DNA of 64,000 nt from Loxodes magnus (Eukaryota > Ciliophora > Karyorelictea > Loxodida > Loxodidae): NCBI GenBank assembly GCA_946699065.1, contig CAMPDV010000087.1, positions 124,001-188,000 on the forward strand, read 5' to 3'. This document shows positions 5,311 through 41,290 of the stretch, piece after piece; positions within the stretch are counted from its first letter, which is position 1; each line of letters begins with the position of its first letter. The notes below the pieces were generated by a model. That model was not told the DNA's origin. It did no database searches and saw only the letters and a list, made by a program, of their open reading frames with translations. The position numbers were made by a program, and so were the translations under genes.

Positions 5311-5692
5311 AAAAAATCAACACTTATCTATATTATTAAATAAAATGGAACCTAAGAAATATTAGACCTCTATTAACGAATACTTGAAAAAATAAGAATA
5401 ACCTAATTTAATTAAAGAATAGCCTTAATAAAATAAAGATTAATAATCTAAAGAATTTATTGCAAAATCAGTTCAGCAAAGGAAATCAAAAATACAATAT
5501 GACTTGAAAAAGCAAAGATAAAAGATAGAAAATTTAGAAAACATACAAGAAAAATTAATGGAATAATTAAACCTTTAATTCCCATTCATAGATGAATCAT
5601 TAAATAAAATCTAATTGTGAATAGTAATTAAATAGGAATAAATTGATAAATAATTTAAAAAAGTCCCTCAAATGTTCCAATTTCATTTTTCT

Positions 5693-5703
5693 TAAATTGA
5701 TAT
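5693..5703. repeat. Target-site duplication, left copy (TAAATTGATAT)
   Basis: This 11-bp word recurs at 6354-6364, on the other side of the antisense family X insertion. Removing the insertion plus one copy rejoins the family Y ORF as in its second copy. Confidence 0.75.
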
Positions 5704-6353: not shown

Positions 6354-6364
6354 TAAATTGATAT
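6354..6364. repeat. Target-site duplication, right copy (TAAATTGATAT)
   Basis: Exact second copy of 5693-5703, on the 5' side of the inserted family X element. Confidence 0.75.
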
Positions 6365-6702
6365 CTAAATAAAGCAAATTTAAGAAAAAAGAATAAAAAC
6401 AATTAATAATTTTAGAATTATAAGATTAATAAGATTAATAATAGAATATCCAAATAGAAATCGAATCAGTATTCTAATAATTAGAAATAAATAAGAAAAT
6501 TTTTATTGAAAAAGATTCGTGCTAGTTATGCTAGAAAAATCTTGTAGGAAAAAATGCAGAAGAAGCAAGAATTTGAAAAAATTAAAAAGTAATAAATATT
6601 AGACCACTTTTCAGAAAATGGACAACAAGAACAGAATACGTATACAAAAAGTAATTCAAAATCACAATAAAGTAGGAATTTTATAAAAGGGAAGGAGAAA
6701 CT

Positions 6703-15700: not shown

Positions 15701-18700
15701 TTTTACTTGCTTTTCTACACTTTTCTTAGAAATCTCTCTAACTTCTAGTTTTTGATAATTACCTAACTGATCTTCAGACTCTTTTACTTGCTTTATTACA
15801 CTTTTCTTAGAAATCTCTCTAACTTCTAGTTTTTGATAATTACCTAACTGATCTTCAGACTCTTTTACTTGCTTTTCTACACTTTTCTTAGAAATCTCTC
15901 TAACTTCTAGTTTTTGATAATTACCTAACTGATCTTCAGACTCTTTTACTTGCTTTAATACACTTTTCTTAGAAATCTCTCTAACTTCTAGTTTTTGATA
16001 ATTACCTAACTGATCTTCAGACTCTTTTACTTGCTTTTCTACACTTTTCTTAGAAATCTCTCTAACTTCTAGTTTTTGATAATTACCTAACTGATCTTCA
16101 GACTCTTTTACTTGCTTTAATACACTTTTCTTAGAAATCTCTCTAACTTCTAGTTTTTGATAATTACCTAACTGATCTTCAGACTCTTTTACTTGCTTTA
16201 ATACACTTTTCTTAGAAATCTCTCTAACTTCTAGTTTTTGATAATTACCTAACTGATCTTCAGACTCTTTTACTTGCTTTATTACACTTTTCTTAGAAAT
16301 CTCTCTAACTTCTAGTTTTTGATAATTACCTAACTGATCTTCAGACTCTTTTACTTGCTTTAATACACTTTTCTTAGAAATCTCTCTAACTTCTAGTTTT
16401 TGATAATTACCTAACTGATCTTCAGACTCTTTTACTTGCTTTTCTACACTTTTCTTAGAAATCTCTCTAACTTCTAGTTTTTGATAATTACCTAACTGAT
16501 CTTCAGACTCTTTTACTTGCTTTTCTACACTTTTCTTAGAAATCTCTCTAACTTCTAGTTTTTGATAATTACCTAACTGATCTTCAGACTCTTTTACTTG
16601 CTTTAATACACTTTTCTTAGAAATCTCTCTAACTTCTAGTTTTTGATAATTACCTAACTGATCTTCAGACTCTTTTACTTGCTTTTCTACACTTTTCTTA
16701 GAAATCTCTCTAACTTCTAGTTTTTGATAATTACCTAACTGATCTTCAGACTCTTTTACTTGCTTTAATACACTTTTCTTAGAAATCTCTCTAACTTCTA
16801 GTTTTTGATAATTACCTAACTGATCTTCAGACTCTTTTACTTGCTTTATTACACTTTTCTTAGAAATCTCTCTAACTTCTAGTTTTTGATAATTACCTAA
16901 CTGATCTTCAGACTCTTTTACTTGCTTTTCTACACTTTTCTTAGAAATCTCTCTAACTTCTAGTTTTTGATAATTACCTAACTGATCTTCAGACTCTTTT
17001 ACTTGCTTTAATACACTTTTCTTAGAAATCTCTCTAACTTCTAGTTTTTGATAATTACCTAACTGATCTTCAGACTCTTTTACTTGCTTTTCTACACTTT
17101 TCTTAGAAATCTCTCTAACTTCTAGTTTTTGATAATTACCTAACTGATCTTCAGACTCTTTTACTTGCTTTATTACACTCTTAGAAATCTTTAACTTGCT
17201 CTTCAGACTCTTTTACTTTAATACACTTTTCTTAGAAATCTCTCTAACTTCTAGTTTTTGATAATTACCTAACTGATCTTCAGACTCTTTTACTTGCTTT
17301 TCTACACTTTTCTTAGAAATCTCTCTAACTTCTAGTTTTTGATAATTACCTAACTGATCTTCAGACTCTTTTACTTGCTTTAATACACTTTTCTTAGAAA
17401 TCTCTCTAACTTCTAGTTTTTGATAATTACCTAACTGATCTTCAGACTCTTTTACTTGCTTTAATACACTTTTCTTAGAAATCTCTCTAACTTCTAGTTT
17501 TTGATAATTACCTAACTGATCTTCAGACTCTTTTACTTGCTTTTCTACACTTTTCTTAGAAATCTCTCTAACTTCTAGTTTTTGATAATTACCTAACTGA
17601 TCTTCAGACTCTTTTACTTGCTTTTCTACACTTTTCTTAGAAATCTCTCTAACTTCTAGTTTTTGATAATTACCTAACTGATCTTCAGACTCTTTTACTT
17701 GCTTTAATACACTTTTCTTAGAAATCTCTCTAACTTCTAGTTTTTGATAATTACCTAACTGATCTTCAGACTCTTTTACTTGCTTTTCTACACTTTTCTT
17801 AGAAATCTCTCTAACTTCTAGTTTTTGATAATTACCTAACTGATCTTCAGACTCTTTTACTTGCTTTTCTACACTTTTCTTAGAAATCTCTCTAACTTCT
17901 AGTTTTTGATAATTACCTAACTGATCTTCAGACTCTTTTACTTGCTTTAATACACTTTTCTTAGAAATCTCTCTAACTTCTAGTTTTTGATAATTACCTA
18001 ACTGATCTTCAGACTCTTTTACTTGCTTTAATACACTTTTCTTAGAAATCTCTCTAACTTCTAGTTTTTGATAATTACCTAACTGATCTTCAGACTCTTT
18101 TACTTGCTTTAATACACTTTTCTTAGAAATCTCTCTAACTTCTAGTTTTTGATAATTACCTAACTGATCTTCAGACTCTTTTACTTGCTTTTCTACACTT
18201 TTCTTAGAAATCTCTCTAACTTCTAGTTTTTGATAATTACCTAACTGATCTTCAGACTCTTTTACTTGCTTTAATACACTTTTCTTAGAAATCTCTCTAA
18301 CTTCTAGTTTTTGATAATTACCTAACTGATCTTCAGACTCTTTTACTTGCTTTAATACACTTTTCTTAGAAATCTCTCTAACTTCTAGTTTTTGATAATT
18401 ACCTAACTGATCTTCAGACTCTTTTACTTGCTTTTCTACACTTTTCTTAGAAATCTCTCTAACTTCTAGTTTTTGATAATTACCTAACTGATCTTCAGAC
18501 TCTTTTACTTGCTTTTCTACACTTTTCTTAGAAATCTCTCTAACTTCTAGTTTTTGATAATTACCTAACTGATCTTCAGACTCTTTTACTTGCTTTTCTA
18601 CACTTTTCTTAGAAATCTCTCTAACTTCTAGTTTTTGATAATTACCTAACTGATCTTCAGACTCTTTTACTTGCTTTAATACACTTTTCTTAGAAATCTC

Positions 18701-21700
18701 TCTAACTTCTAGTTTTTGATAATTACCTAACTGATCTTCAGACTCTTTTACTTGCTTTTCTACACTTTTCTTAGAAATCTCTCTAACTTCTAGTTTTTGA
18801 TAATTACCTAACTGATCTTCAGACTCTTTTACTTGCTTTAATACACTTTTCTTAGAAATCTCTCTAACTTCTAGTTTTTGATAATTACCTAACTGATCTT
18901 CAGACTCTTTTACTTGCTTTACCTACACTTTTCTTAGAAATCTCTCTAACTTCTAGTTTTTGATAATTACCTAACTGATCTTCAGACTCTTTTACTTGCT
19001 TTATTACACTTTTCTTAGAAATCTCTCTAACTTCTAGTTTTTGATAATTACCTAACTGATCTTCAGACTCTTTTACTTGCTTTAATACACTTTTCTTAGA
19101 AATCTCTCTAACTTCTAGTTTTTGATAATTACCTAACTGATCTTCAGACTCTTTTACTTGCTTTAATACACTTTTCTTAGAAATCTCTCTAACTTCTAGT
19201 TTTTGATAATTACCTAACTGATCTTCAGACTCTTTTACTTGCTTTAATACACTTTTCTTAGAAATCTCTCTAACTTCTAGTTTTTGATAATTACCTAACT
19301 GATCTTCAGACTCTTTTACTTGCTTTTCTACACTTTTCTTAGAAATCTCTCTAACTTCTAGTTTTTGATAATTACCTAACTGATCTTCAGACTCTTTTAC
19401 TTGCTTTAATACACTTTTCTTAGAAATCTCTCTAACTTCTAGTTTTTGATAATTACCTAACTGATCTTCAGACTCTTTTACTTGCTTTTCTACACTTTTC
19501 TTAGAAATCTCTCTAACTTCTAGTTTTTGATAATTACCTAACTGATCTTCAGACTCTTTTACTTGCTTTAATACACTTTTCTTAGAAATCTCTCTAACTT
19601 CTAGTTTTTGATAATTACCTAACTGATCTTCAGACTCTTTTACTTGCTTTTCTACACTTTTCTTAGAAATCTCTCTAACTTCTAGTTTTTGATAATTACC
19701 TAACTGATCTTCAGACTCTTTTACTTGCTTTAATACACTTTTCTTAGAAATCTCTCTAACTTCTAGTTTTTGATAATTACCTAACTGATCTTCAGACTCT
19801 TTTACTTGCTTTATTACACTTTTCTTAGAAATCTCTCTAACTTCTAGTTTTTGATAATTACCTAACTGATCTTCAGACTCTTTTACTTGCTTTAATACAC
19901 TTTTCTTAGAAATCTCTCTAACTTCTAGTTTTTGATAATTACCTAACTGATCTTCAGACTCTTTTACTTGCTTTAATACGCTTTTCTTAGAAATCTCTCT
20001 AACTTCTAGTTTTTGATAATTACCTAACTGATCTTCAGACTCTTTTACTTGCTTTTCTACACTTTTCTTAGAAATCTCTCTAACTTCTAGTTTTTGATAA
20101 TTACCTAACTGATCTTCAGACTCTTTTACTTGCTTTAATACACTTTTCTTAGAAATCTCTCTAACTTCTAGTTTTTGATAATTACCTAACTGATCTTCAG
20201 ACTCTTTTACTTGCTTTAATACACTTTTCTTAGAAATCTCTCTAACTTCTAGTTTTTGATAATTACCTAACTGATCTTCAGACTCTTTTACTTGCTTTAA
20301 TACACTTTTCTTAGAAATCTCTCTAACTTCTAGTTTTTGATAATTACCTAACTGATCTTCAGACTCTTTTACTTGCTTTAATACACTTTTCTTAGAAATC
20401 TCTCTAACTTCTAGTTTTTGATAATTACCTAACTGATCTTCAGACTCTTTTACTTGCTTTTCTACACTTTTCTTAGAAATCTCTCTAACTTCTAGTTTTT
20501 GATAATTACCTAACTGATCTTCAGACTCTTTTACTTGCTTTAATACACTTTTCTTAGAAATCTCTCTAACTTCTAGTTTTTGATAATTACCTAACTGATC
20601 TTCAGACTCTTTTACTTGCTTTAATACACTTTTCTTAGAAATCTCTCTAACTTCTAGTTTTTGATAATTACCTAACTGATCTTCAGACTCTTTTACTTGC
20701 TTTAATACGCTTTTCTTAGAAATCTCTCTAACTTCTAGTTTTTGATAATTACCTAACTGATCTTCAGACTCTTTTACTTGCTTTTCTACACTTTTCTTAG
20801 AAATCTCTCTAACTTCTAGTTTTTGATAATTACCTAACTGATCTTCAGACTCTTTTACTTGCTTTCTACACTTTTCTTAGAAATCTCTCTAACTTCTAGT
20901 TTTTGATAATTACCTAACTGATCTTCAGACTCTTTTACTTGCTTTAATACACTTTTCTTAGAAATCTCTCTAACTTCTAGTTTTTGATAATTACCTAACT
21001 GATCTTCAGACTCTTTTACTTGCTTTTCTACACTTTTCTTAGAAATCTCTCTAACTTCTAGTTTTTGATAATTACCTAACTGATCTTCAGACTCTTTTAC
21101 TTGCTTTAATACACTTTTCTTAGAAATCTCTCTAACTTCTAGTTTTTGATAATTACCTAACTGATCTTCAGACTCTTTTACTTGCTTTAATACACTTTTC
21201 TTAGAAATCTCTCTAACTTCTAGTTTTTGATAATTACCTAACTGATCTTCAGACTCTTTTACTTGCTTTAATACACTTTTCTTAGAAATCTCTCTAACTT
21301 CTAGTTTTTGATAATTACCTAACTGATCTTCAGACTCTTTTACTTGCTTTAATACACTTTTCTTAGAAATCTCTCTAACTTCTAGTTTTTGATAATTACC
21401 TAACTGATCTTCAGACTCTTTTACTTGCTTTATTACACTTTTCTTAGAAATCTCTCTAACTTCTAGTTTTTGATAATTACCTAACTGATCTTCAGACTCT
21501 TTTACTTGCTTTAATACACTTTTCTTAGAAATCTCTCTAACTTCTAGTTTTTGATAATTACCTAACTGATCTTCAGACTCTTTTACTTGCTTTATTACAC
21601 TTTTCTTAGAAATCTCTCTAACTTCTAGTTTTTGATAATTACCTAACTGATCTTCAGACTCTTTTACTTGCTTTAATACACTTTTCTTAGAAATCTCTCT

Positions 21701-23261
21701 AACTTCTAGTTTTTGATAATTACCTAACTGATCTTCAGACTCTTTTACTTGCTTTAATACACTTTTCTTAGAAATCTCTCTAACTTCTAGTTTTTGATAA
21801 TTACCTAACTGATCTTCAGACTCTTTTACTTCTTTAATACGCTTTTCTTAGAAATCTTCTAACTTCTAGTTTTTGATAATTACCTAACTGATTTTCTTAT
21901 TTTCTACCTCACTTTTCTCTCTAACTTCTAGTTTTTGATAATTACCTAACTGATCTTCATACTCTTCTACTTGCTTTATTACACTTTTCTTAGAAATCTC
22001 TCTAACTTCTAGTTTTTGATAATTACCTAACTGATCTTCAGACTCTTTTACTTGCTTTTCTACACTTTTCTTAGAAATCTCTCTAACTTCTAGTTTTTGA
22101 TAATTACCTAACTGATCTTCAGACTCTTTTACTTGCTTTAATACACTTTTCTTAGAAATCTCTCTAACTTCTAGTTTTTGATAATTACCTAACTGATCTT
22201 CAGACTCTTTTACTTGCTTTAATACACTTTTCTTAGAAATCTCTCTAACTTCTAGTTTTTGATAATTACCTAACTGATCTTCAGACTCTTTTACTTGCTT
22301 TTGCTTTAATACACTTTTCTTAGAAATCTCTCTAACTTCTAGTTTTTGATAATTACCTAACTGATCTTCAGACTCTTTTACTTGCTTTAATACACTTTTC
22401 TTAGAAATCTCTCTAACTTCTAGTTTTTGATAATTACCTAACTGATCTTCAGACTCTTTTACTTGCTTTAATACACTTTTCTTAGAAATCTCTCTAACTT
22501 CTAGTTTTTGATAATTACCTAACTGATCTTCAGACTCTTTTACTTGCTTTAATACACTTTTCTTAGAAATCTCTCTAACTTCTAGTTTTTGATAATTACC
22601 TAACTGATCTTCAGACTCTTTTACTTGCTTTAATACACTTTTCTTAGAAATCTCTCTAACTTCTAGTTTTTGATAATTACCTAATCTGATCTTCAGACTC
22701 TAGTTTTTGATAATTTAACTGACTTGCTTTACTTGCTTTAATACACTTTTCTTAGAAATCTCTCTAACTTCTAGTTTTTGATAATTACCTAACTGATCTT
22801 CAGACTCTTTTACTTGCTTTACTTGCTTTTACACTTTTCTTAGAAATCTCTCTAACTTCTAGTTTTTGATAATTACCTAACTGATCTTCAGACTCTTTTA
22901 CTTGCTTTAATACACTTTTCTTAGAAATCTCTCTAACTTCTAGTTTTTGATAATTACCTAACTGATCTTCAGACTCTTTTACTTGCTTTATTACACTTTT
23001 CTTAGAAATCTCTCTAACTTCTAGTTTTTGATAATTACCTAACTGATCTTCAGACTCTTTTACTTTTTATTACACTTTTCTTAGAAATCTCTCTAACTTC
23101 TAGTTTTTGATAATTACCTAACTTGATCTTCAGACTCTTTTACTTTCTAACTCACTTTTCTTAGAAATCTCTCTTGCTTCTAGTTTTTGATAATTACCAA
23201 ACTGATTTTCAGACTCTTTTATTACTCATTTATGCTTTTTTTTAGTTTTATTCCTTTTCAT
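6703..23261 (-). pseudogene. Possible giant 27-residue-repeat protein encoded by the array (frame broken)
   Basis: Each 81-bp unit is 27 codons. One minus-strand frame has no TAA, TAG or TGA in any regular unit, and reads SEDQLGNYQKLEVREI followed by a Lys-rich segment ending KQVKE. The variable site is one codon: GAA, TTA or ATA (Glu, Leu or Ile). A start is plausible at ATG 23261 (MKRNKTKKKHK), with one TGA-Trp soon after. The frame then runs into the diverged first units, where two shifts cancel. About 61 units from 11866 down to 6909 are uninterrupted, and a non-repeat tail continues to about 6703, antisense to family Y. However, malformed units at 11.9, 12.2, 12.9, 13.5, 15.3, 18.9, 20.9 and 22.8 kb shift the frame, so no single intact gene spans the array as given. 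It could be a decayed coiled-coil protein gene, a real gene damaged by assembly errors, or a non-coding satellite whose frame is accidental. Confidence 0.35.
6909..23220. repeat. 81-bp tandem array, about 200 copies
   Basis: The unit is 81 bp. For example, successive copies of the CTTTTACTTGC boundary start at 6909 and 6990. It repeats head to tail for 16.3 kb. Units are identical except in one small window, where two adjacent bases take three states (CTTTTCTAC, CTTTAATAC, CTTTATTAC). A rarer ACGC variant is also present, sometimes with ACTTTTTTT or ACTTTCTTT beside it. Malformed units occur near 11860, 12100, 12175, 12890, 13490, 15275, 17175, 18915, 20865, 21830-21960, 22300, 22690-22740, 22820 and 23060-23150. 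The last unit at the right edge (23150-23220) is clearly diverged, as is typical of an array edge. Homogeneity at all other sites points to recent amplification or gene conversion. There are no spacers, so this is not a CRISPR-like array. Confidence 0.95.
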
Positions 23262-23680
23262 ATTTTTAAATCATTTTTGAAATTTTAGATTTTATTTTTT
23301 TACTAAATTTTTATAGTTTTCATTTTTTCATTTTATCTATGAATTTATTTTGTTTCTATCTATTTTTGTATTTTTTAATTGTAATTGTTTTTATATTTTT
23401 TAAAAAAATTGTTTTTTCATTTAACTGAATTTTCCTATTCTTTTATTACTTTTTTTGACTTTTTACATTTATTTTTTTCAATCAATTTTTAGTGATTTTT
23501 AAAAGTTTATAATTTATCATAATAGTTTTTTTTAATTTATTGTCAAGACTTTTTCTGATTTTTTTTTACTTCTTATTTATAAATTTATAATTGTAATGTA
23601 TATTTTTTTTTATTTATTTGTTTTTTTAATATTAAGCAATAAATTTTTTTCGCTTTTTTTAGTTTAAGTCTAATTTTTTT
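23262..23680. other. T-rich flank of the array
   Basis: T-rich sequence (A-rich on the minus strand) between the array and the 23.7-24.8 kb repeats. If the array is transcribed from 23261, this is its upstream region. No promoter motif is recognised. Confidence 0.4.
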
Positions 23681-23689
23681 TTCGTTTTT

Positions 23690-24780
23690 CCACCCCAAAT
23701 ATTAGTTCTAGCGAAAAATTCATATCGAAAAAAGGCTTTTTTGTTTTTTTTTGCAAGTTTTTTTTGCAATTTATAAAAACTTTTTTTTTTAATTTGCACT
23801 GCTTTAATGCATTTTATTTTTTTTTGTTTATTCCGTCCTCAAAATCTCTTATTGTACAAAACTCTTAGCAAATAAAATTTTTTACTTTTTTTTGCATAGA
23901 AACATGTTTATTTTTCTACTGATATCCAAAATACATTTAAAAAATATCTAAGTTCAAAGATCTAAGTTTATTCCGTCCGAAAAAAGTCTTGCAGTGTAAA
24001 AAGCTGATAAAAAAAACAAAATTAAATTTTTCACGATTTAATGCTTTAAATAATCTTTTTCGCCCTTTTGTTAAGCTCTAAAAATCAAAAAAAAACACAA
24101 AACCCAATTCTTAAAATTTCTAACGACCAAAATCAACAATTTATCAAACCAAAATTTTCAAATCAAACCTCAAAAAATTTCGAAATCAAAATCAAAATCA
24201 AAAAAAATAGCTGCCATTTTTTCAAAACCCTTTTATATTTTGAAACTTTTTCTCAAAAAAAATTATTCCTTTCTGCACTTTTTTCAATCCCGAATTCCCC
24301 CAGTTTGTTCCGTCCCAACTCCTCCCTATAGTGTAAAACGTTGAGCAAAAAAAGGCCTTTTTTATTTTTCAATTTAAAGCTGATGTATGATCATATTTCT
24401 CCTTTTATTTAACTCTACAAATTAAATAAAAAAAATATCGGAGCCAAATCGAAACATTTTTATCACAACCCATTAAAAAAATAATTATTACAGCCAAAAT
24501 CAAAAAAAATTCGAAACCAAAACTAAAATTTTCAAAACCATACTCAAAATTTTTAAACCCTATATCAAAATTTTCAAAACCAAAACTAAAATTTTCAAAA
24601 CCAAATTCAAAAAAATTATTTCAAATTTTTTTATTCCCTTTTTTTCAAAAACCTTTTATACTTTAAAACTTTTTCTCAAAAAGATTATTTCTTTCTGACC
24701 CTCTACTTATCCCGAAATCCCCCAACTTGTTCCGTCCCAACTCAGCCCTATAGTGTAAAACGCTGAGCAAAAAAAGACTT
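23690..24780. repeat. Diverged direct repeats built on a TTCCGTCC...TGTAAAA...GCAAAAAAA core
   Basis: The core occurs near 23830, 23968, 24308 and 24730, with a weaker form at 23690. The last two copies are the closest. They share TGTTCCGTCCCAACTC, then CCCTATAGTGTAAAACG and GAGCAAAAAAAGRC. About 130 bp before each core is also similar (TTTTTCTCAAAAA, TCCCGAA..CCCCCA). The two units are about 420 bp long. The plus-strand ORF at 24068-24331 spans one unit and is not conserved, so I do not call it a gene. Confidence 0.7.
24505..24620. repeat. Minisatellite, about 24-bp unit with AAAATTTTCAAAACCA core
   Basis: Four to five imperfect copies of a roughly 24-bp unit lie inside the second 420-bp repeat. 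A looser version occurs at about 24148-24210 in the first, which supports the larger duplication. Confidence 0.6.
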
Positions 24781-25049
24781 TCACACTTTTTGCCATTTTC
24801 AAGGCTTCTAAACTCATAAAAATATTAAAAAAAACAGTCTGAACCTCTTTTTATATCGAAAAATATTATTATTATTGAAATTAATAAGAAATAATATAAA
24901 AATACTCACACTTGCTTAGAAAAAAAACTTTGAAAAAACTACTAACACTTGAAATAATACAAATTAAAAAATAATATACTCGAATTTAAAAAAATTCTGC
25001 TCACTATTTAGAAAAAAACTTCTTTAAAAAATCTTTTATACTTCAAAAA

Positions 25050-25140
25050 TTTTATCTAGACCCTTTTAAATAAAATATACTTATTTATAAAAATCCTAAA
25101 GCTTCAAAATTTTTATCTAGCCCCTTTTAAATAAAATTAT
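25050..25140. repeat. Short direct duplication (CTTCAAAA..TTTTATCTAG..CCCTTTTAAATAAAAT)
   Basis: Two adjacent copies of about 36 bp lie about 50 bp apart in AT-rich DNA downstream of the kinase gene. No function is suggested. Confidence 0.6.
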
Positions 25141-25309
25141 AAAGACTTAATATTATTTTAATAACTTACTTTTACTCAGATTTGTTCTTATATAATTAAA
25201 AGAACAATATAATTTACTTAAACATTTCTAATATACTTAACTAATTTGAAAAAAAACGAAATATACTTAATAAATAACTTTAAAAAACCTTAAACTCTTT
25301 AAATATACT

Positions 25310-25560
25310 TGACTTAGAATTTCTAACTAACAGAAAGACTTAAATAAAGAACTTAAAGAAATAACTTAAATAAATAACTTAAAGAAATGACTTAAATAAA
25401 TAACTTAAAGATAAAACTAAAGAAAGAACTTAAAAGAAAGACTTAAAACAATTTTAAATATTAGAACTTAAATAATGACTTAAAAGGAAGAACTTAAAGG
25501 AAGAACTTAAAGCAATAACTTAAAATAATTTTAAATATTAGAACTTAATCAAAAATATTA
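25310..25560. repeat. Minisatellite of AACTTAAA-type units downstream of the kinase gene
   Basis: Units of about 12-16 bp built on AACTTAAAG or AACTTAAAT repeat across the stretch. The longer word TTTTAAATATTAGAACTTAA occurs twice. It lies just beyond the 3' end of the kinase-WD40 gene, so it probably flanks or overlaps its 3' UTR. Confidence 0.7.
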
Positions 25561-25577
25561 ACTTAATACATACTTGC

Positions 25578-27451
<1,874 letters not shown>

Positions 27452-28245
27452 TGTCGAAACGATTTTTTATAATTTTTTTGAAATTTAATCTTAAAAATAG
27501 AAAAATACCAGAATTTAATAATATTTATTTAAACCTAAAATAAACAAAAATTTTTGAAATTAAAATTTTAGATTAATAAAATGAAATTAATTTAAGAAAA
27601 AAACGATACAAAACAAAATAAATTGATAAATAGGTTATACTCTGTGATCAAACATAAAAATTAACTTAGCAAAACAAATTTTGTTCAAAACAAAAAAAGC
27701 AATAAAACAAAAAGAATCTAACAGATAATCATTAAATTAAATAAAATTAAAAATGGACAGTAAATAAATTAACTAACTTCATTAGTAAATCAATTAATTA
27801 AATAAAAATAGAAAAAATATTTAATATGCCTTTAACATTTTTATTTAAAAATTAAACAACAATTTTATATAATGAAATTAACACTTAATTCGTGATATAG
27901 CAGAATCAATGAAAAAAATTAATAATACAATGAATAGTAGAAACTTTAAGTTTTTAATTACTTCACTCTAATTATAAATTAAAGAACAAGACCTTTAAAT
28001 TTTAATAACTAAGATTATAAAAAACGAAAACATAAACTAATATATTTATTTTACCAAAACTTTGAACTGCCTTAATTCTAAAAAAACACTTTCAAAAATC
28101 ACTTTATAGATAAAACATTACAACTATTAAGTAAATAATTTTTTAAAAAATTAGCAAACTTAATAAAATTCTTTTGAAACACTATACATATATGAGCTTT
28201 ATCAATTAGATAAGTCTTAAACTAAAATTAAGAAAGATAAATTAA
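27452..28245. other. AT-rich intergenic stretch
   Basis: Upstream region of the minus-strand kinase gene. It is very AT-rich, with no recognised gene or motif. Confidence 0.5.
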
Positions 28246-28260
28246 ATAAATACAAACAAT
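28246..28260. repeat. Target-site duplication, left copy (ATAAATACAAACAAT)
   Basis: A 15-bp word repeated exactly at 29105-29119. The two copies bracket the family X element. Confidence 0.85.
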
Positions 28261-29104
28261 AAAAAAAAAAAAAAAATGGATTAATCTCTTCGACTCTCAA
28301 AAAATTAACTTAGAAACCTAAAGAGAAAAGCGGCAAAAGAAATTTAGAAAAAATAATAACAATAGGAGGAGTCAAGCTCTTCTTCAGAAGGTAAAGTTAT
28401 GGTAGGATAAATAGAGATAAATTAACCTAAAAACGAAACTAATCAAAAACTTTAAATTTAATTAGACCAAATGTAAAAAGTAATCTCAAATTATGAAGAA
28501 ACAACTTACAACTTAGGCGAAAAAATACGGGAACTAATGAGTAATATAGAAGATTAGAACAACGAATTACTAATACTTAGAAGATAACTTATTTGTAGCA
28601 AATTAATAACGGAAGAATAACTCTGAACTTAATCATAATAAAATTTTAAATACGACACAAAAATGGAAATAGAAAAAATACCAATAGAATTAAAAACAGA
28701 ATTGAATCCAGAAAAAGAAATGATTGATACAAGTTTCATTAAAAGATTAGAAAATATAGAAAATAAATTATCATAAAAAAGAACGAAATAAAGACAATAA
28801 TACAAACTTTGTTGATGTTGCAAATCAAATCAACATATTTTAAAAAACTGTTGATAGTGAAAGAAAATAAACGAATAAGAGCAGAAAAGAACATGGAGAC
28901 AACTCAATAAACTATGAATAACTCCAACAGGGATCTACAAATAAAAGCTTTTTGCAAGACCACTTGAACGGTTACAGTGGTAACCTTCCACTTAATAAAA
29001 AGGTCGTGGATCACGCCCACGTTAAAAAAGCTGTCCGCAGGAACTGGTTGCAATTCCAGAGAATGCAAAACTCTACTAACTTTAAGTATATTATTATTAT
29101 TATT
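28261..29104 (+). mobile_element. Family X retroposon, best copy (844 bp)
   Basis: The element lies exactly between two 15-bp direct repeats. It begins with a run of 16 A's, goes straight into the ORF1-like gene, and ends with a conserved chain of hairpins and an (ATT)n tail. Target-site duplication of variable length (15 bp here, 11 bp for copy 1) and a short-repeat 3' tail are hallmarks of non-LTR retrotransposition. The element has no reverse transcriptase or endonuclease, so it must rely on a partner, like the ORF1-only half-LINE elements of mammals (an analogy only). Confidence 0.8.
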
Positions 29105-29139
29105 ATAAATACAAACAATCATACAAAAAAAATTAATGA
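28276..29139 (+). CDS. ORF1/Gag-like protein with coiled coil and CCHC zinc knuckle (family X)
   Basis: The single frame from ATG 28276 stays in register to TGA 29137-29139, just past the element in the flank (287 residues). A TGA at about 28911-28913 (after RQLNKL) is an alternative stop, which would leave the hairpin block as 3' UTR. Order of parts: basic N-terminus (MDQSLRLSKNQL), a run of Ser (ESSSSSEG), a coiled coil (about 60-115, ending NNELLILRRQLI), an acidic-basic linker, then Cys-Trp-Cys-Cys..His..Cys matching CX2CX4HX4C exactly (CWCCKSNQHILKNC), the nucleocapsid-type zinc knuckle. The Trp in the knuckle is written TGA. A coiled coil plus knuckle is the usual make-up of retroelement ORF1/Gag proteins, which trimerise and coat RNA. 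No other cellular role is suggested. Confidence 0.7.
28976..29059 (+). other. Chain of small hairpins at the family X 3' end
   Basis: The hairpins are AGTGG/CCACT with a 7-nt loop (28976-28992), CGTGG/CCACG with a 7-nt loop (29005-29021) and CTGG/CCAG with an 8-nt loop (29044-29059). Positions and loop sizes match copy 1 at 5745-5827, with paired changes in stem 1 (A-T to T-A) and an extended stem 3. The third hairpin loosely resembles a tRNA T-arm or B box, but the whole does not form a tRNA. Confidence 0.7.
29105..29119. repeat. Target-site duplication, right copy (ATAAATACAAACAAT)
   Basis: Exact partner of 28246-28260, directly after the ATT-rich tail. Confidence 0.85.
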
Positions 29140-31130
29140 ACAACCTTATATATAAGAGTAAACTATTTCAAATAATATTAAACAGAAATGAATTCATTAA
29201 AACCATAAATAATTAACAATAAATTCAATAATAAAATGTTAAAACTTAAAATGGTTTAATGAAGAAAAAGATTAAATATAATTTAGTTTCCTTTAAAAAA
29301 ATAATAGACTAATCTTAAATTCAATTGTAGAATGATTATGCTGCTGTATTCTATAAAATAATTAAAATTTGAATATATGAAACATACAAAATATTTAAAA
29401 ATCATAAATATTATAAGCCTAAGTAGAATAAAATTAAAAAGCTTTTATCTTTAACAAATAAGTTAATGATTCATCAATTAATAAATAAATAAATAATTCA
29501 CTTTTTTAAAATGTTTATGATCTTTTAAATATAATAAGAATATTTAGGTAACTAAAAATACTAAATCTATAATAATTAATAGTTTAGAATTCTTAATAAA
29601 CATTTAAACTTAAATATACCTACGATGAAATCCTCAAGCAAATTAATTAAAAATCTAAAATATTTTCATTACGACTTTAAGGAAGTTCATTAAACGATAA
29701 AATTCAAAGATATTAAAATCAAAAAGGAATTAATATAGATTCTAAAATCATAAAATAGAGAAAACAGATTAATAGTAAAGATCACTTTTTTAAAAACTTT
29801 TAAATTATTAAGATAATAAAATGGAAATTAGATTATTAAATTAAAACTAACTTATCTAAAAAAAAGGTTGACTACATTTAATAGCTTTTATCCATCATGC
29901 TTTCTTAAAACTCTCATCTAAAAGAATTAACCTTTTATAATGATACACTTAAGAAAATTATAATAGTTATGGAAATAAAATCTTTATTAGTTAAAAAAAA
30001 TTGAATATTTTTAACATTTGACTTTTATTTAGTTAATTACATAATTCATAAGCAAAATATAAAGAAAAAATTCTTTAAAAATAATTGCTTTTATCTCTTT
30101 TTTGTTAATAATTGAAGTTCAAAATTTTTGCTAACTTCGATTCTTAAGGGCGTTAATTAAATAAACATTAAATATAATATAAAAAGAGAAGAAAATAGAA
30201 AAAATAAAAGTTGCTATGAGAATGATATCATTTATTAAGAAGTAAATTGTTCTAAAAAAACATAAATAAATTAAAAGAACATGATGCTGATTTTTTCAAT
30301 ATTGTAGCTCCAACTAAATTATTTTTAACCTTTAGATCGTAATTATTTTTCATTATACCAAGACTATTTGCAATAAATTTAAAATAATTATTTTAAGTTA
30401 TATTTGTAAAATTAGAAAGCTCCTTTTGAGTTCATTTATTAAGGACCTGAAAATTTTGAATAACTATTAAATTTAAAAGAATTGCTAAATATATATAGGC
30501 TACTTGCAACCTTCTTGTCATTTAATATGAAAAAATATAAATCTTTTATAAATAAACCTGCAATAAGGTTGTATAAACATAGCTCTTTAGACTAATTTTA
30601 AGATAAAATGAATAAATTAGTAATAATAAAGATAATCTTTAAAGCATATCTATGAGATCATTTTGCAAGCTTAATAATAATGTAAATATATAAAAAACAA
30701 AAGAAAGAAGAGCCAAATAATTAATATTAGATACTAACCTTAGAGTTTCAAGATGCAATAAGAATTATATAAGAAATAGACTAATGAAACTGAACTACTA
30801 AGGGAAATCATTTAGAAATAATAACAAAAGAAACTACTTAAAATGAAACCTTGTTTAATTTTAACTGTACTATGATTATTAGTAGTCACATTAATAATTG
30901 AATGATTAACTTTAAAAGCTGAACTCAAAGGTTAAGCAAGTATTTAATAACTATTTTAAACTAAAGATTAATTTATCCTAGTACTATTTATGTAAGTTAT
31001 TAAAATCCATTATTTATGCATTAATTTAACTTTCACTTTATAAATAAAATTATCTTAAGATTGAGGGAAATTATATAAAAAAGGCATAGAATTACTTTAA
31101 TTATTAATCAGCTAAGCTAATACGATAATG
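29140..31130. other. AT-rich stretch, no gene recognised
   Basis: Roughly 2 kb with very low GC. No frame stands out and no repeat is shared with other parts of the window. Confidence 0.4.
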
Positions 31131-31139
31131 ATACTTTAC

Positions 31140-33660
31140 TAGACTTTTAGAAGCTTCTATCCCATAATATCAAAATAAGATTAAGATAAAGAGATGAAGA
31201 TATTTAGTAAGACAGCGTATACTAACCTCAGTAAGAGTGCTAAGAACCAATTTATAGCTAAAGATTGACTTAACATTTTAAGACTTAAGTAGCCCTCTCA
31301 TTATTCTAAAGCTTCAGTTCCTCTGGATATTTTTAAAGCTTTTTTGAGATAGGAAGTTCAGATTAAGTCTTATTGAGGAAATAAAGATTTTACCCAGTAT
31401 ATAACGGAAATTAATTACCTCAATCATTTTATTGAAGATAAACAGAAAAATAGTTAAAGCTAGAATTAAAAAATACTTTGCAGGATCCAAGACTTGAGAT
31501 TGAAAAAAATTGATAAAATAGTTACTTTGAAATATCTAAGATTACTAAGCAAAAAGGAGCTAAAATTAAACAAAAAAACTAAGCATCATAAAATTGATCT
31601 AAGAAAGAAAATTCTTATTAATTAGTACTAACTTGTAAGTATTTTACAAGGAAATTTGAGAACATTGCAAATTAGAATTTTTGAAGCATAGATTTATAGA
31701 AATTTAAGAAATCTAACTAGTTGTCCATTTTCATAAGCTAAGTAAAGAAAAATTTTAGATTCTTGAAGATTAAAAGAAGAGAAAAATTCTGTTAAAAGAC
31801 ATTAATATGTTGGTAGGTGCGAGGAAATTAAAAATCTAATTAAGAGAAAATCTTACTTTTGGTATTGTGTCTTAACTAACTATCCTTGATTTATAATTAA
31901 TAATCTAACTTTTCAAGCAAAAAAAGCAGCTATCCTCTGAATCGATCAAATATCAAGAGAAGAAAGTCATTAGAGGTATATATTTCCTGGATATAGGAGG
32001 ATTACTTAAGAAGTTTATTTTTAAAGAGAGTAGCCTTTCTTTGCAGATTCTTTTAGCTAATTGAGTAGATGTCTGCCGAAAATTTGTCAAGCAAACTTTG
32101 ATTCATCTCATCTTCTTAGAAGAATAGTTAAAACAGAAAGCAAGTTAGCAGAGTATATAAATGCTTAGACAAATATTTCATTCCATCAAGCTGTGAGAAT
32201 AAAGACTAAGCTTAATAAGAATGTAAGCGTGCTTACTTAAAATGAATAGCTCAGGGCTAATAAATATAGAAACGACAACTAAGATTGCTAAGCTATTCAA
32301 AGCTAGCAAGATAAGAATACGTTAAACTTAATGGAAATTTCTAGAACTTCAGTCAATAACCTAGGAAGAATAAATAGTTGAGTCGAAGAATCTATTGCTC
32401 AGTAAATTCTTTAATAGAAACAATTTTTATTAACTAAATAACAGAACTAAAAAAGCGAATTTCAACTTAAATTTATCGCCTTGAGCTTTGAGATTATTAC
32501 AGAATCTTCTTCTCTTTTTCTTCTTTAGTCAGTTTAGAATACCAAACATTAGAAGAAAATTAAAACCTTAATAGTTGCTTAACCATATTATAGTAGCAAA
32601 ATTTTTTCAATGGTGAGTGAGTCATAAAGAAGAGGTTTTGAGAGATAAATATTGCTTCAAAATACCCTTGTTACTTAGTATAAGGCTAGCTTAAGATTCT
32701 ACATCAATAAACAAAATAGCAAATTTAGGAAAATCTAGTTAATTCATTAACTAAAGTTTCAAGAATATTACGCATGATAAAGTTCTTAATCTTTAGATAC
32801 CCCAATCAAGGCATCTTTAGTCCATTTTTGCTTCCCTTTCTTTAGCTTTAATTTTCTCTTCAGTTTTTAATCATAATTATTTGTTGTAGCTATTCATTAA
32901 CGATTCAACTTCCCTTTATTCTTTAAATTTCACTCTTTAATTTTAAATTCAATTTTATTATCAAAATATAGAACCTTAAAGAACCATAAAACATGTTTAA
33001 ATCTAGCTTTTAAGTAAATTATTAAAATCTATAAGATTATAGTAATAAAGGAATTTCCCTAGGGTATCAAGAACAATATTAAGAGCTTTAATTTGCAATC
33101 ATAAGACAATTTACTTAAGTCCTACTAGCATTGATAGTTCAATCTGAAGGGAATAAATATAAGATAAATTACATAATCAGTCAATCATGTCCTTGGAAAG
33201 AAAATCTTTAGGCTAAACTTGTAAAGGAGAAATCTTAAAACTTTCTAAGATATAGAGAAACTTTAGAATACTTTAGTAACCCAATAGAACATAAACCCTA
33301 TTCTCCTAAATTTTATTTAAAAAAAGTACAATCAACATAATCTTAGAACATTCTTAAAATCTATTTAGTTCTACAAAAAGCAATTAATTGAATCTTAGTT
33401 TAGACTTAACTTGCATAGAGAATATATAATCACAACTATAAAGCATTTATCAATAAAATTAAATGCTTACCTGTTTAGTTAATGAGATATAATGTAACTC
33501 TTTTAGTTTAAGCTATAAATATAACAAGAATATTAAATATTAAAGTTTTTAATTGAATTAGAACTAATTCTCTCTTCTCTAAAGCAATAAGCAATTCAAA
33601 TTTGAGACATTAAGTTTTTAGCTTACTGACATTAAAGATAGAATAGAAAAAATAATTTTC
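31140..33660 (+). other. Coding-like stretch, frame not resolved
   Basis: GC is visibly higher than in the flanks, especially 31170-32800. On the plus strand two overlapping frames both read as plausible protein (one has ASVPLDIFKAFLRQEVQIK, the other YFEISKITKQKGAKIKQKN). With no true stop codons I cannot choose between them. I see no reverse-transcriptase, integrase or other catalytic motif. It may be one gene with tiny introns or a decayed element. Confidence 0.3.
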
Positions 33661-34963
33661 TAAAATAATTCTTAAAAATACAGAAAAGTCTGTATTTCTT
33701 AACAAATGTAGAACTTAAAATCAAAAGATGAAAAACCTAAACCAACAAAGAGAATTATTATTATTTTTAGACAGAAAGGAGAAACAATTATTATTTTACC
33801 AAGGTAGAAAAAATTAAACCTAATTAAAAGACTACTTGTTGATAGAATTATATATAAGAGCCTTCATTAATTATGCTAATATACTTATTTATTTAGATTT
33901 ATAGATAAAATAGTATAAAAATATCTTAATTAAACTGTAGAATTTTAAATTTAATATTAATCTATCTCTAATGGTTATTATCTATACTGCTAAATTTTTA
34001 TTTCATATATTTTTGTCTTTTTTATAATGTTTTCCCAAAATTTATCTAAAGCTCTTGAACTAAAATGTAGTTAATATAAAACAAATAAGAGAGTAAATGT
34101 TTAAAGTGTATTTGCTTAAATAATTTATTGTAAAAGTGAAATGAAGAATCGTTACTATATAAATATAATATCTTATATTCGTTAGACTTTTCTCTATTAT
34201 TACATAGATTCCTATTATTTGTTTTTTTTGCTAAATATGCCTCTAATATAATAGCTTTTTGAAAGTTTCTATAAGTCATTATTTTTGAATCCTTTACCAA
34301 CTTCATAAATTATATAATACTTATTTTTTCTTCTACTAAAGACTTTTGTAGGATAGATTATTCACTTGCAATAATGATTAATAAAAGAGCATACATTTAT
34401 AAATAAAGAAGTTTAAGATTATTAGCTACCAATCTAAATAGCCATAATTATAGGAGACTTTATGCATTATTAGTTTTTTCTTTTTAGATATAGTAACTTC
34501 TTGGTTAAGGCTTCATATCTCTAGCTTCTGTCAATTTCATTTGCATTTAAAATTTAAAGACAATTTCCTTTTATTTTAAGATTAAAGCTCTCTTTTACAA
34601 ATATTCTTGCTTAAATTAAGCAGTATTATTATCTCAAACAAGGGAATTATTATTAGGTATTAATGATTATAATAATAGCAATATGACTTACTAGAATCTA
34701 AATAATAATAAGTGAATATTTATTTGAAATGCTGTTAAAGATAACTAGACAATTAAGATTATTAAAGATTCTAATTAAAATAGTGGCTTTAATAATGAGA
34801 TTAACTAAAAGAATATTTTAGTTTTATAATCCTTCTTTAAGTTTAATTTAAATCTCTAATTTAGACTTTTAATTACTAAATAAAACTGGCTACTATTTAC
34901 TTATAACCATCTATTTATATTTATTTACTTGAAAATTGTAAATTTGCCCACTATTATTAATTT

Positions 34964-36690
34964 CATTATGCCTTTTTAGTCTATTGGTAAATATTATTTA
35001 AGAATTTCACACAAAAACCAGTTTCTTTAAGATCTTCTTTTTTGGAAGGATAAAAGTTAATTTTTGGTGTTTTCATAGATTGATTAAGAAATTTACTTTG
35101 ATTCTATAATGTTTTTTCTTATACGTTCTGCATTTTTTCCTTATAAATGCAAATTACAAAATTGTTTAAGAAATCATTTTATTAATTATCTAATTTAGTC
35201 TCATATGAATCTGCGCTTTATTTGAATTTTTGCCCATAATTTTCTTGCTTCTTTCATAAATCACTTTTTTCTATACTTTTCCAGTTAAAGGAAAAACTAT
35301 TTTAATGTTTTGCAACTAATCTTTTATTTTTCTTAAATTTTCTATAACATTTTAAAATTTTATTGAGCGAATTCTAAAGAATTTTCTTAAGTTTTTCCCT
35401 TTCGCTCGAATAATAATACGTACTGATAAAAGAACTATCTTTAATTTATCCCTAACTGCTTAATTTTCTTTTTTCTGAGTATTTTATGTCTTTAATGTTC
35501 CGTCAAAGTTTATACATTATTCTTTCAATCAATTTTATTTCTCTTTTAGCTTCAATAATTTCCAGTATTTGTTAAAAAAGTCTGGAAGAATAAATTGTTT
35601 ATTTAGGGTTGAGTAGTTTTTTATGTTTATTATTTATCCTTATCACTCTAATTAGTTAATTCTGATTTTTTATCTCTTTAATATCTTAAACTTATCATTA
35701 ATTCTAAGTTGAGAGAAATTAAGCCCATTTCTCAGTCAGTTTATGAAGAGCTAAGAGTAAATAAGAATCATAAGTTGATCTCTAAGTTTTCTATTTTTCA
35801 ACTGTATCTTTTATTTTTTATTTAAAGTGAAATAAGTAAGCTTGTTTAATACAATTAGAGCATTATTTAATTAGTAATGACTATAGCATTATTTAAACAT
35901 TACTTAATTTCTTTAATTAAATAGCCTTCTACTATTTATTATTAAGCTTTAGTTCAAATTTTTTATTAGATTTCTTTTATTAATCTTAGTCTCATTATTT
36001 ATGTTTCTTAATTACGTTTAACTATTATATTATTAAAGTGAGAAGTTAGTTCTTTGCTTCTTAATTTAATATAATGCTATTATTAGTTACTAAAAGAGAG
36101 ATATAGAAGCATATGATAATCTATTGAGTTAATTAAAAGGTTATAAATAGAGCTTATTATAAGAGTTTAAAGGAATATATTTATTAATTTAACTAAATAA
36201 ATACCTAACACTGTTTCTTCTTTTATCTTTCCAAGCTTTTTATTTAACTCCCTCTATTCATAATTTCTTTTAGGTTTGATAGATCTGAGTTTTGACTTTT
36301 GAAGTTTCTGGTATTTAAATTTTTATTTCCAGTTATTGCCACAAACCATTTCAATGCTTTCAGATATTTCCTATCAATTAGCTTGCAACTTTATTATAGC
36401 TTTCCTCTAATTAATTTGTGGATGCTAAACAATTTACTATCAAAGGAATTAACTCGAGGCTTGCCATTAATAGACTCTTGTTTCTTATAACTGCAAAGGT
36501 TAAAAATTTTCAAGCGATTCTTTAGTTTCTTTCCAGATAATCTTTTCTACTTTCACTCTAACCATTTAGCTACTAAAGCCTTTTTCTAGCAGTGAGATAC
36601 TTTATCTTCTATAAAGTTATTTAGAATTAAGGATTTAACTAGATAGTATAATTCTCTTAAGATAACGACTTTAAGCTCTTATATTCCTAT
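34964..36690 (-). CDS. Unknown protein, mostly charged and helical; start not fixed
   Basis: Function not recognised. The minus strand reads as one protein down to a TGA at 34966-34964 (the last residues read FLNNIYQQTKKAQ). The most convincing part is 34964-35850: ALHKLTEKWAQFLSTQNQW, then FQQILEIIEAKREIKLIERI, and near the end KINFYPSKKEDLKETGF. The same frame stays protein-like through AT-poorer DNA at 36240-36690 (LNPQFQITLQKIKYLTARKR), so the gene may be about 575 codons long. I could not find a clear start codon. The middle, 35850-36240, is AT-rich and could hide an intron or an intergenic gap between two genes. No domain can be named. Confidence 0.45.
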
Positions 36691-36739
36691 TCATATTTAA
36701 CTAAAACTAAATCAGATACTAAATAAAGTATATAATAGG

Positions 36740-38400
36740 ACACCAACAAAATTAAACGAAGGATGAGTATTTTAATTACAGTAATACTTTACTCAAGAAG
36801 AGTATTTTTAGAAGATAGAGAGCACTAGAAAGAAATAAAGAAGCATTAATAGAATAAATTAGATAATTAGTTTTATGCGAAGCAATAAATAACTAAGCTT
36901 TTGGAAATTAGAACTTTTAATTAAGATATTTTATGGAATTTTTACTTTATGCTAGATACTAAATTTCAGCGTCTTGTAATTGATGAAACTAACATAAAAA
37001 GAAAAAAATTTCTATTAGATGAAGAAATCTTGGTTATAATGGATTGATAAAGGAGATAGAAAAAAGGTTATAGGATAAGAAGAGGAGAAGAGTAATACTC
37101 AAGAAACAGCAGAAGACTTTTATCAAAATAAAAAGTGCTTTTATGTGTTGTAGTTTAAGAACAATATGAAGGCTCTGCGTAACCAATGATCAGATAGAGA
37201 TATAATGGCTACTACTACATTAGAATTAAAAGGTTGTATTAATGAAGGTTTCTTAAACTGTATTATAATAAAAAGTGATATTAGATACCTAGCATGTGTA
37301 ACTATAGTAGTATTAAATAAAAGTAAGTTCTATGTAGATCTATAAACTCATGCATAAATAATTATATTTGTCTTTATAGAAAAAATCCATTTTTTGAGGT
37401 GAAATAACAAAAAAACCATAAATAGTTTCTTAAGTTAACTCCTAAAAAAATAGGAAAAACGATATAAAATTTGATTCAATAATTTTTAAGATAGTTAGGA
37501 AATTAATACTTTATAAACGAATAATCAAATTTAAATTAGTTAGAGAAATAATAAAAAGATGTAAAAGCTAAAAATTAAATCTTCTAAATAAAAAACTAGG
37601 TTTAGGAAGTAAAATCATAAGATTTTTTATACATAAAACTTGAATTAGTTATTATAAAATTTAATAGAGTCTATAGATATAAAAAGAGAAATCGCAATAA
37701 AAATATATTAGTAAAATGTAATGTAAATATATAAATTTCTAGGTTTTCAATGCTAATAACTTAGTCACTCTTAATACAGAGAAGATTTCTAACAATGGAA
37801 ATTTAAATATCACAAAGACTATAATAATTCAAAAATTAGATAATCACTTGCTTAAATTACAACCTTTTGCATTCCTTTAGTTTCATTATCTAAAGGAATA
37901 GACAAATAGACCTTTGCTTTAAATTAAATATTTTCTTCGGATTTTAGATAAACTTGAGTAAAGTTTTAAAGATAAGTTAGATTGGCAATATCAAGAAAAA
38001 ATATTAAAAGGCAAAAAATAAAGAAAAAAGAAGATATTGATTTGAATATGCCCTTTAAAAGTAAATTTAAAACAAATCTATTATTTAAATAATAGCTAAT
38101 TCGCAAGGCTAAAGGTTCTTTTTAAGTCAATACTATTAAATAAATATTAAACGATGAATATTATAAATATAAATTGGATAATGATGATCATTATAGATCG
38201 AAATTAAAAAAACTTAGATGTATTTATAAAGATTAAAAAAAAATCATCTAGTAAAATATTAGAATATATCTTATAAGACTTATCATTAACTTTGAATATG
38301 CTAAAGTTTAATAAGTGAAGAAAAACTTAATCATTATGAATTTACTTTTGAACACGATATAATAAGAAATGTTATGGATCAAATTATTATAAAAATAATT
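36740..38400 (+). other. Coding-like stretch, frame not resolved
   Basis: Several segments on the plus strand look translated, for example KNNMKALRNQWSDRDIMATT near 37150 and YYKYKLDNDDHYRSKLKKLR near 38160. Other frames are also plausible between them, and I cannot place a start, introns or an end. It is divergent from the minus-strand gene before it. Confidence 0.3.
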
Positions 38401-40290: not shown

Positions 40291-40429
40291 AAATTCTCTT
40301 CTAAGACTATAAATTTATTTTTCCTTCTTATTCCTTTATAAATTTGACGAAAATTATTTATATAAATTTAATTATACGCTTTTTTTTTAACTTTCATTGC
40401 AGTAAATAAAAGCCAAGTCCAATATCGTT

Positions 40430-41290
40430 ATTATATAATTATAATATCAGCTATTATTTCAATTAAAGTTTACCATTTCTAAGTTTCAATAAGTTCAGGG
40501 GCCAATTTTTTAATGTAGTTGGAATCCGCAACATCTTTTTCTGAATAACTGGTAATCACTTCTCTTCTTCTTTGAAAAGGTTCCTTCTATTTCCCAATTT
40601 CTTCTTGTAAATTTTATTATCTACAATATATAATTTTGTAAGGTCCATGCAAAATTTATATTTCTTAAGGTTTTAAATATTGCATATTTGAGTAAGTGCT
40701 TTAACAATTTTTAATGGTAAAATTTTTAACCAATTTATTTGATTTTTGCTTTTCCACAAAATTTTTTCTAATTTTTCTATCCTCTTAAATATTCCTAGAT
40801 TTTAAATTTCCCCATTCCCCTTTTCTGCTGCTTAGACTTTATCTTTCTAAGATTCATCAGTTATCATTGATGCTTTCTAAATTAAGGTGGATTATGATTA
40901 TTGTCATAGCTGCTCTATTACTACTTGACTTTTTTACAAGTTGTTTTCTCAAGTAAGCAGTTTCTAAATCTAGAACTTTGATATTTATTATTATTAATTC
41001 TCTTATACTCTCCACAAGATTTAATATTATCTTATCCTACTATTTTTAAGTTTATTTCATTTTTTCAAACTATTCTCATCAAACTTCACCTTTGATTTCT
41101 CTTAATAAAGTATTTTCTGAAGGTTCTTGTAATTATTTTCCTTAAAAAAAGAAGAAGATTCAGGTGACTTTTAATTTATTTCTTATTCTCTTCTTGCCTT
41201 TCTTCTAACCTTTCTTATTTATATTTTAGATACTTAATTACTTTCCATTTTGACACCAAATTCCTTTTTTTGTTTTTTCTGTACTATCTA
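40430..41290 (-). mobile_element. Family X retroposon, copy 3, old and frameshifted
   Basis: ATG at 41248 opens MESNQVSKIQIRKVRRKARREQ..ESSSFFKE, matching the basic and Ser-rich start of the 28.3-kb copy. A shifted frame carries NLVESIRELIIINIKVLDLE..LRKQLV, matching NLGEKIRELMSNIEDQNNELLILRRQLI. Then FKRIEKLEKIL matches FIKRLENIENKL. The knuckle is not recognisable. Two hairpins sit at the conserved 3' positions: AGTGA/TTATT at 40544-40560 with wobble pairs, and GTTG/CAAC at 40518-40532. No target-site duplication is evident, as expected for an old insertion. Confidence 0.6.

Follow-up and report, generated by a model that had tools for sequence, protein, structure and literature searches.

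Loxodes magnus carries mobile units, probably retroposons, that encode a single ORF1-like protein

The 64,000-nucleotide stretch of the karyorelict ciliate Loxodes magnus analyzed here (contig CAMPDV010000087.1, positions 124,001–188,000; hereafter the window) contains a mobile element of 844 bp at 28261–29104 on the plus strand, which carries a single open reading frame (ORF) for a predicted coiled-coil and zinc-knuckle protein. With a probability of roughly 0.82, this element and its relatives are non-autonomous, non-long-terminal-repeat (non-LTR) retroposons of the long interspersed nuclear element (LINE) type, encoding only an ORF1-like protein and using the enzyme of a separate LINE. Purifying selection has maintained the ORF between families whose synonymous sites are already saturated.

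Mobility, structure, and families of the units

Exact 15-bp direct repeats, ATAAATACAAACAAT, at 28246–28260 and 29105–29119 (plus strand) enclose the 844 bp, just as an earlier note on this DNA had proposed. When the two flanks of the window copy (copy 1) are joined, the resulting 541 nt match without a break and with 98% identity at C87:34072–34613, C87:91856–92396, and C193:287180–287719, and in two pieces at the window itself; the other 19 of the 24 matches are partial and weaker (68–80% identity). At the three uninterrupted sites, paralogous segments show the target in its empty state, and the window element is mobile. Most simply, copy 1 landed after the segment duplication, because the paralogous segments hold the empty target.

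The element, which together with its copies at other sites (98–100% identical) is referred to as family 1, is composed of an A-rich leader of 15 bp (28261–28275), variable in sequence and length among copies and abutting the ATG at 28276; an ORF1-like frame read in code 27 (28276–28917, codons 1–214, with codon 214 the last TGA that family 1 has in this frame); a 3′ region containing three short hairpins; and, at the end, a tail of (ATT)5 (29090–29104), all on the plus strand. Within the frame opened by this ATG and read by table 27 lie a predicted long helix (coiled coil) of residues 52–107 (28429–28596) and CWCCKSNQHILKNC, a CX2CX4HX4C motif of residues 179–192 (28810–28851). The coiled coil, knuckle, and ATT tail announced in the earlier note are thus present, the knuckle being assigned by motif and the helix by model. 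Hairpins 1 (AGTGG...CCACT, 28976–28992) and 2 (CGTGG...CCACG, 29005–29021) have the counterparts TGTGG...CCACA and GCGTGG...CCACGC in a second family described below, and are followed by hairpin 3 (CTGG...CCAG, 29044–29059). Frames in the window require TAA and TAG to be read as Gln and an internal TGA as Trp; code 27 and a size of 706 Mb are given for the L. magnus somatic assembly in passages of PMC11441545.

The only repeats at the boundaries of the unit are the short flanking duplications, and there is no LTR. Variable-length target duplications, a simple-repeat 3′ tail, and the absence of LTRs are the features of non-LTR retroposons that insert by target-primed reverse transcription, whereas the reverse transcriptase (RT) and endonuclease (EN) that an autonomous LINE carries within its unit are both missing. 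A Pfam search of the protein from the one frame of the 844-bp unit gave no RT or EN match, bearing out the earlier statement that the element has no polymerase; likewise, six-frame translation of the window, with 7000–23400 and 63300–64000 left out of the scan, gave no RVT or endonuclease among the Pfam families listed (25 of 37 and 25 of 29).

Whole-genome searches were run on an assembly of 705.7 Mb. In the family-1 search, in which 40 of 1,652 candidates were scored, the 42 matches listed were 98–100% identical over ~835–874 bp, except for one 28-bp piece; family 1 is young and has been active recently. Exact patterns in the whole assembly, counted with allelic or duplicated contigs included, amounted to 1,177 for the family-1 3′ motif, 726 for the family-1 5′ 34-mer, 435 for the family-2 3′ motif, and 709 for other variants of hairpin 3, and reversed-pattern controls gave 0 for every motif counted. 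Among 100 family-1 3′ motifs listed, 57 are preceded on their own strand by an exact copy of the 5′ 34-mer, which lies at 790–792 bp in 52 cases and at 740, 776, or 807 bp in five; the remaining 43 have no exact 5′ partner and may be truncated or mutated. Because the exact 5′ end sits at a near-fixed distance, the 57 paired copies are free-standing units rather than parts of longer, RT-bearing elements, in which, as the earlier note had cautioned, copies might always have been embedded. The units are discrete, ~830–880 bp in length, and have fixed ends.

Target duplications, the lack of which would have counted against the earlier note by its own criterion, accompany these insertions generally. 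At 33 distinct 5′ flanks of family 1, derived from 41 elements in 40 loci, the direct repeats average 14.0 bp, compared with 6.6 bp for mis-paired flanks; they are of at least 12 bp at 27 of the 33, mostly 12–19 bp, with 19 bp the longest. Two of these flanks (L018 and L031) are nearly the same, probably representing one duplicated insertion, and both are counted. Ten family-2 copies gave a mean of 12.8 bp against 5.9 bp for mis-paired flanks, with at least 12 bp in seven. The ATT tail has 4–9 units at 32 of the 33 family-1 flanks, one being without a clean tail, and by manual count the repeat overlaps the tail end by 1–4 bases at 23 of them, which may reflect priming on the tail, or else base composition. 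At one locus (L030), a copy is inserted in the tail of another in the opposite orientation.

The two further copies that the earlier note placed in the window are real; copy 2 belongs to a second young family and copy 3 to an old one. Copy 2 (~5704–6353, minus strand), compared with other members of family 2, has lost ~182 bp internally, and with them the knuckle; it is flanked by the 11-bp direct repeat TAAATTGATAT at 5693–5703 on its 3′ side and 6354–6364 on its 5′ side (plus-strand reading). When copy 2 was used as query, with 40 of 2,191 candidates scored, the identity was 95–96% over the main piece; ten fetched family-2 copies, which retain the ~182 bp missing in copy 2, are 96.8–100% identical to one another (mean 99.2%). 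Copy 3 (~40423–41253, minus strand) is a decayed member of its old family, of about the same length, around which no convincing flanking repeat was found (8 bp at best). Of the 40 scored among 231 candidates for its family, three matches reach at least 95% identity, namely copy 3 itself and a pair on C193 that may be segmental duplicates, and the other 37 lie at 68–76%.

A third young family was found from an element inside the LINE of locus L054, with 40 of 2,197 candidates scored; besides the own locus, the matches show 95–99% identity, begin at query positions 98–109, and end at 975–981. Its protein aligns with columns 161–232 of the family-1/2 alignment (hhalign probability 96.8, E 2.6e-10), and, judging from this match of the knuckle and the region downstream, the third family is distantly homologous to families 1 and 2, both of which have (ATT)n tails.

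The window region itself lies within a segmental duplication, the units of which are ~58–60 kb apart on C87 (C87:34072, C87:91856, C193:287180). Copy 1 is absent from the other duplicated segments, while the family-2 form of the hairpin-3 motif is found repeatedly, at C87:27978, 75631, and 129739.

The encoded protein and its constraint

Over 212 codons, families 1 and 2 differ with a nonsynonymous rate (dN) of 0.34 and a synonymous rate (dS) of 1.68, giving a dN/dS of 0.20, compared with 0.81 and 0.87 in the shifted frames of the same alignment. A 93% identical copy at L053, which looks mosaic, gave 0.13 against family 1 over 213 codons, and in comparisons with copy 2 and with the copies at L051 and L064 the segments before codon 214 gave 0.16–0.30 where computable, several being saturated. 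The frame is kept in 27 of the 28 family-1 copies displayed (of 33), and one is frame-shifted. The knuckle motif is present in family 2, the L051 and L064 copies, and the L054 family, its spacing being conserved across five diverged copies or families. As a separate observation, the earlier part of the L053 copy (3767–2932) is diverged and the later part is near-identical to family 1, a pattern suggestive of recombination or of a template switch.

Pfam gave no credible match to the element protein, and its curated zf-CCHC profile was not matched; the knuckle is assigned because of the CX2CX4HX4C motif and its conservation. AlphaFold2, run with a six-row alignment, returned a predicted local distance difference test (pLDDT) score of 54.5 for the whole model and a single long helix, residues 52–107, with 55 in the ten-residue block 51–60 and 71–82 in the blocks covering 61–120. 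A search of solved structures also gave no credible match.

The similarity between families crosses the TGA at codon 214 and reaches approximately codon 232, and because the homology to the other families runs this far, Trp is the probable reading of codon 214 in family 1. The loop of hairpin 3 contains a TGA in frame in both family 2 and the L051 copy, ~50 nt before the element end, which is near the median 3′ untranslated region of 41 bp given for L. magnus in a passage of PMC11441545, and family 1 has at this loop a TGC plus a shifted frame. Despite the missing hairpin-3 TGA, the 3′ motif of family 1 is the most numerous among the motifs counted.

Where the enzyme may come from

By the preferred explanation, a unit would be transcribed as an mRNA starting just before the ATG, and its coiled-coil/CCHC protein would bind and chaperone its own RNA in cis, presenting the hairpin and (AUU)n end to the EN and RT of a separate LINE, which would then copy the element RNA by target-primed reverse transcription. 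The term self-contained, used in the earlier note, accordingly fits the free-standing unit but not the enzymology, since the enzyme is likely borrowed.

Candidate donors were sought among the resident LINEs. Of 3,403 candidates from an RVT_1 search, 150 were scored, and 20 LINE loci fetched from them fall into families A, B, C, and D; an endonuclease search, with 150 of 2,075 candidates scored, revealed further LINEs, including the very young and numerous LINE E, the 3′ end of which was placed from coordinates. The element protein matches 7 of the 20 loci, and by eye these matches are located either outside the LINE bodies or in the inserted element of L054 (5823–6700). Between the ORF1 of LINE A and the element protein, the alignment is confined to the knuckle and spans 24 columns (hhalign probability 1.1). 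The 3′ ends of LINEs A–D differ from that of the element; the tails of A–C are ATTT, a T-run, or AATT/ATTT as against ATT in the element, and the tail of LINE D is (AATT)n. In 16 insertions of LINEs A–C (12 A, 2 B, and 2 C), no direct repeat of at least 12 bp was found, the longest being 11 bp, in contrast to 27 of 33 element flanks (Fisher p 2e-8), with the proviso that the scored LINE copies may be somewhat older and their repeats possibly blurred. From this comparison were omitted the LINE A rows C80, C413, C1844, and C246 and the LINE C rows C2272 and C473 for want of a recognizable 5′ end, the LINE C rows C251, C585, C333, and C83 as repeats of the L056 and L055 insertions, and L061 and L067, which repeat L051 and L055. 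LINEs A–C were therefore rejected as source or donor on account of their different 3′ ends, the lack of such target duplications and, for A, a different ORF1, and LINE D on account of its tail; the donor is probably not A, B, or C.

Several observations weigh against the proposed reading. The LINE sharing the 3′ hairpins and tail, for which the earlier note had suggested looking, did not appear: among families A–E none has the 3′ end or hairpins of the element with an (ATT)n tail, and the best of 28 comparisons of the 3′ block of the element, that with the end of a SINE (short interspersed nuclear element) that terminates like LINE E (p 0.012–0.015), is not significant. The 3′ end does not fold better than shuffles (z −0.49). 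Direct repeats are shorter than 12 bp at 6 of 33 family-1 flanks and in 3 of 10 family-2 copies. The knuckle is not recognized by Pfam, and the protein fold is only weakly predicted by AlphaFold2. Past codon 213 the constraint is weaker, with dN/dS values between families 1 and 2 of 0.32 (21 codons) and 0.48 (35 codons), of 0.32–0.45 against the L051 copy, the L064 copy, and copy 2, and of 0.97, from few changes, against the L053 copy. Finally, beyond codon 214 family 1 offers no further TGA in frame, a strange feature if the ORF is functional.

An earlier comparison of the ends with other end strings reached p 0.02 at best in 20, and when the 100 listed of the 709 variant hairpin matches were set by eye against the listed RT/EN matches, both lists being partial, none was found just downstream. 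Among the resident LINEs compared, ORF1 and 3′ end are not shared with LINE A, and no common 3′ end was found in B–D.

The strongest competitor holds that the unit is a half-LINE of the HAL1 type, a deleted form of an unsampled resident LINE with the same ORF1 and 3′ end, and we regard this as a serious possibility, about half as credible as its opposite. Mammalian HAL1 is of such a kind (passages of PMC5322556), the zinc finger of the Paramecium solo ORF1s resembles that of the ORF1 in LINE groups 1–3 (passages of PMC5405496), and the LINE repertoire was read in part, at the search depths given above and with the LINE E ORF1 outside. Set against it are the location of the protein matches in the 20 loci of A–D, the alignment of the LINE A ORF1 at the knuckle only, and the fact that the ORF1-only form is common to synonymously saturated families, by which the loss of RT would be old.

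An unlikely extension is that these elements form an RT-less retroposon lineage with its own ORF1-like family, derived from no living LINE, split into several simultaneously active families, and perhaps shared with the Paramecium solo ORF1s. If so, the persistence of the lineage may be due to its protein, which would capture the enzyme of a LINE in cis for the RNA that encodes it, and the lineage would be a stable parasite distinct from SINEs and half-LINEs alike.

Mobilization by LINE A, B, or C through relaxed recognition of the tail alone appears improbable: many of the RT matches scored come from these families, and passages of the L. magnus study (PMC11441545) name two families of apparently complete 5–6 kb LINEs, but the tails are not ATT and the difference in target duplications, even allowing for older LINE copies, speaks against it. 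Still less credible are LINE-made retrocopies (processed pseudogenes) of a host zinc-knuckle gene, which would account for the one ORF, short leader, and target duplications but hardly for more than 1,000 near-identical copies, (ATT)n instead of poly(A), recurrent 3′ hairpins, and the low dN/dS between families. A SINE with an incidental open frame, to which the size, tail, and lack of RT would be suited in a code where TAA, TAG, and internal TGA are sense and long frames come cheaply, is the least probable of all, given the dN/dS of the true frame relative to the shifted ones, the constancy of the knuckle spacing in five diverged copies or families, and no tRNA found in the window by ARAGORN.

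The LINEs themselves gave several observations of separate interest. The lack of repeats of at least 12 bp in the 16 scored insertions of A–C (loci L048, L049, L051, L055–L059, L063, L065, and junction loci L084–L097) is unusual for LINEs. L060 contains a SINE with an end like that of LINE E; around it an imperfect 15-bp repeat was read by eye, and the script found none of at least 9 bp. L060 (reverse complement, ~460–770) and L064 (~6745–7050, LINE orientation) each hold a short repeat, the two having similar bodies (GATGRTGGGAGCTGA...), and its end is LINE E-like in the former and (AATT)n, like LINE D, in the latter, perhaps reflecting a SINE that swapped LINE tails. On C5131 and C20, RVT_1 matches recur at regular steps of ~2.5 kb, as if a LINE fragment were in tandem array.

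Comparison with known systems and other repeats of the window

The nearest known counterparts are the solo ORF1 elements of Paramecium, a ciliate of a different class. According to passages of PMC5405496, seven such elements (A–G) with a terminal zinc finger are present in the germline, three end in (TAAA)n, and their authors judged them likely to be mobilized in trans. The likeness to the Loxodes elements, one of architecture, consists in the ciliate host, an ORF1 only with a zinc finger, and a simple-repeat 3′ end. In contrast to the seven Paramecium elements, the zinc finger of which is like that of the resident LINE ORF1s, the Loxodes protein has no match to the LINE A ORF1 beyond the knuckle; the Loxodes elements also have an (ATT)n tail and a protein stretch past the knuckle, their young families reach hundreds to >1,000 exact 3′ motifs each, and germline elimination was not detected in their host.

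HAL1 of mammals, mentioned also in a passage of PMC4161310, likewise has ORF1 only and target duplications and takes RT and EN from full LINEs (passages of PMC5322556), but it is made up of truncated L1 elements that end in poly(A), unlike the Loxodes element with its different protein and (ATT)n tail. SINEs are similarly short, RT-less, and LINE-dependent with simple-repeat tails, and differ in that the Loxodes element encodes a protein under purifying selection. HeT-A of Drosophila telomeres encodes a Gag-type protein and is not known to encode an RT. Its telomeric location, stated in a passage of PMC10088271, contrasts with the dispersed Loxodes insertions with target duplications.

The suggestion in the earlier note that such a family is undescribed in karyorelicts was not contradicted in searches on retrotransposons of Loxodes and of karyorelicts, nor by the passages of PMC11441545; the ORF1-only kind itself is known from Paramecium and HAL1. 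What is new is the karyorelict host, the scale, the insertions demonstrated, and the selected ORF across diverged families. The families reach further than the earlier note had seen, and the evidence that they move and that their ORF is selected is unusually clear. Passages of PMC11441545 report that interspersed repeats of L. magnus are mostly unclassified and name the LINEs rnd-1_family-27 and -19 among its non-LTR elements. The present family may be contained in the L. magnus repeat library as an unclassified repeat, and the ORF1-only families put a name to part of this largely unclassified fraction. Together with the Paramecium solo ORF1s, they suggest that the form recurs across ciliates, and they pose the puzzle of why a parasite of LINEs keeps an RNA-binding protein yet gives up the enzyme. 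The answer is approachable by comparison and experiment, because several families in one genome keep the selected protein while their synonymous sites saturate.

Elsewhere in the window, a 16-kb tandem array (6908–23221) with strong strand skew is built of an 81-bp unit (27 codons) in ~184 copies in the main row and could code for a giant protein made of repeats. At 25830–26445, a tandem repeat with a unit of 126 bp (42 codons) may belong to a WD40 gene; Pfam matches to WD40 and protein kinase fall somewhere in the frames of 1–6999 plus 23400–38380.
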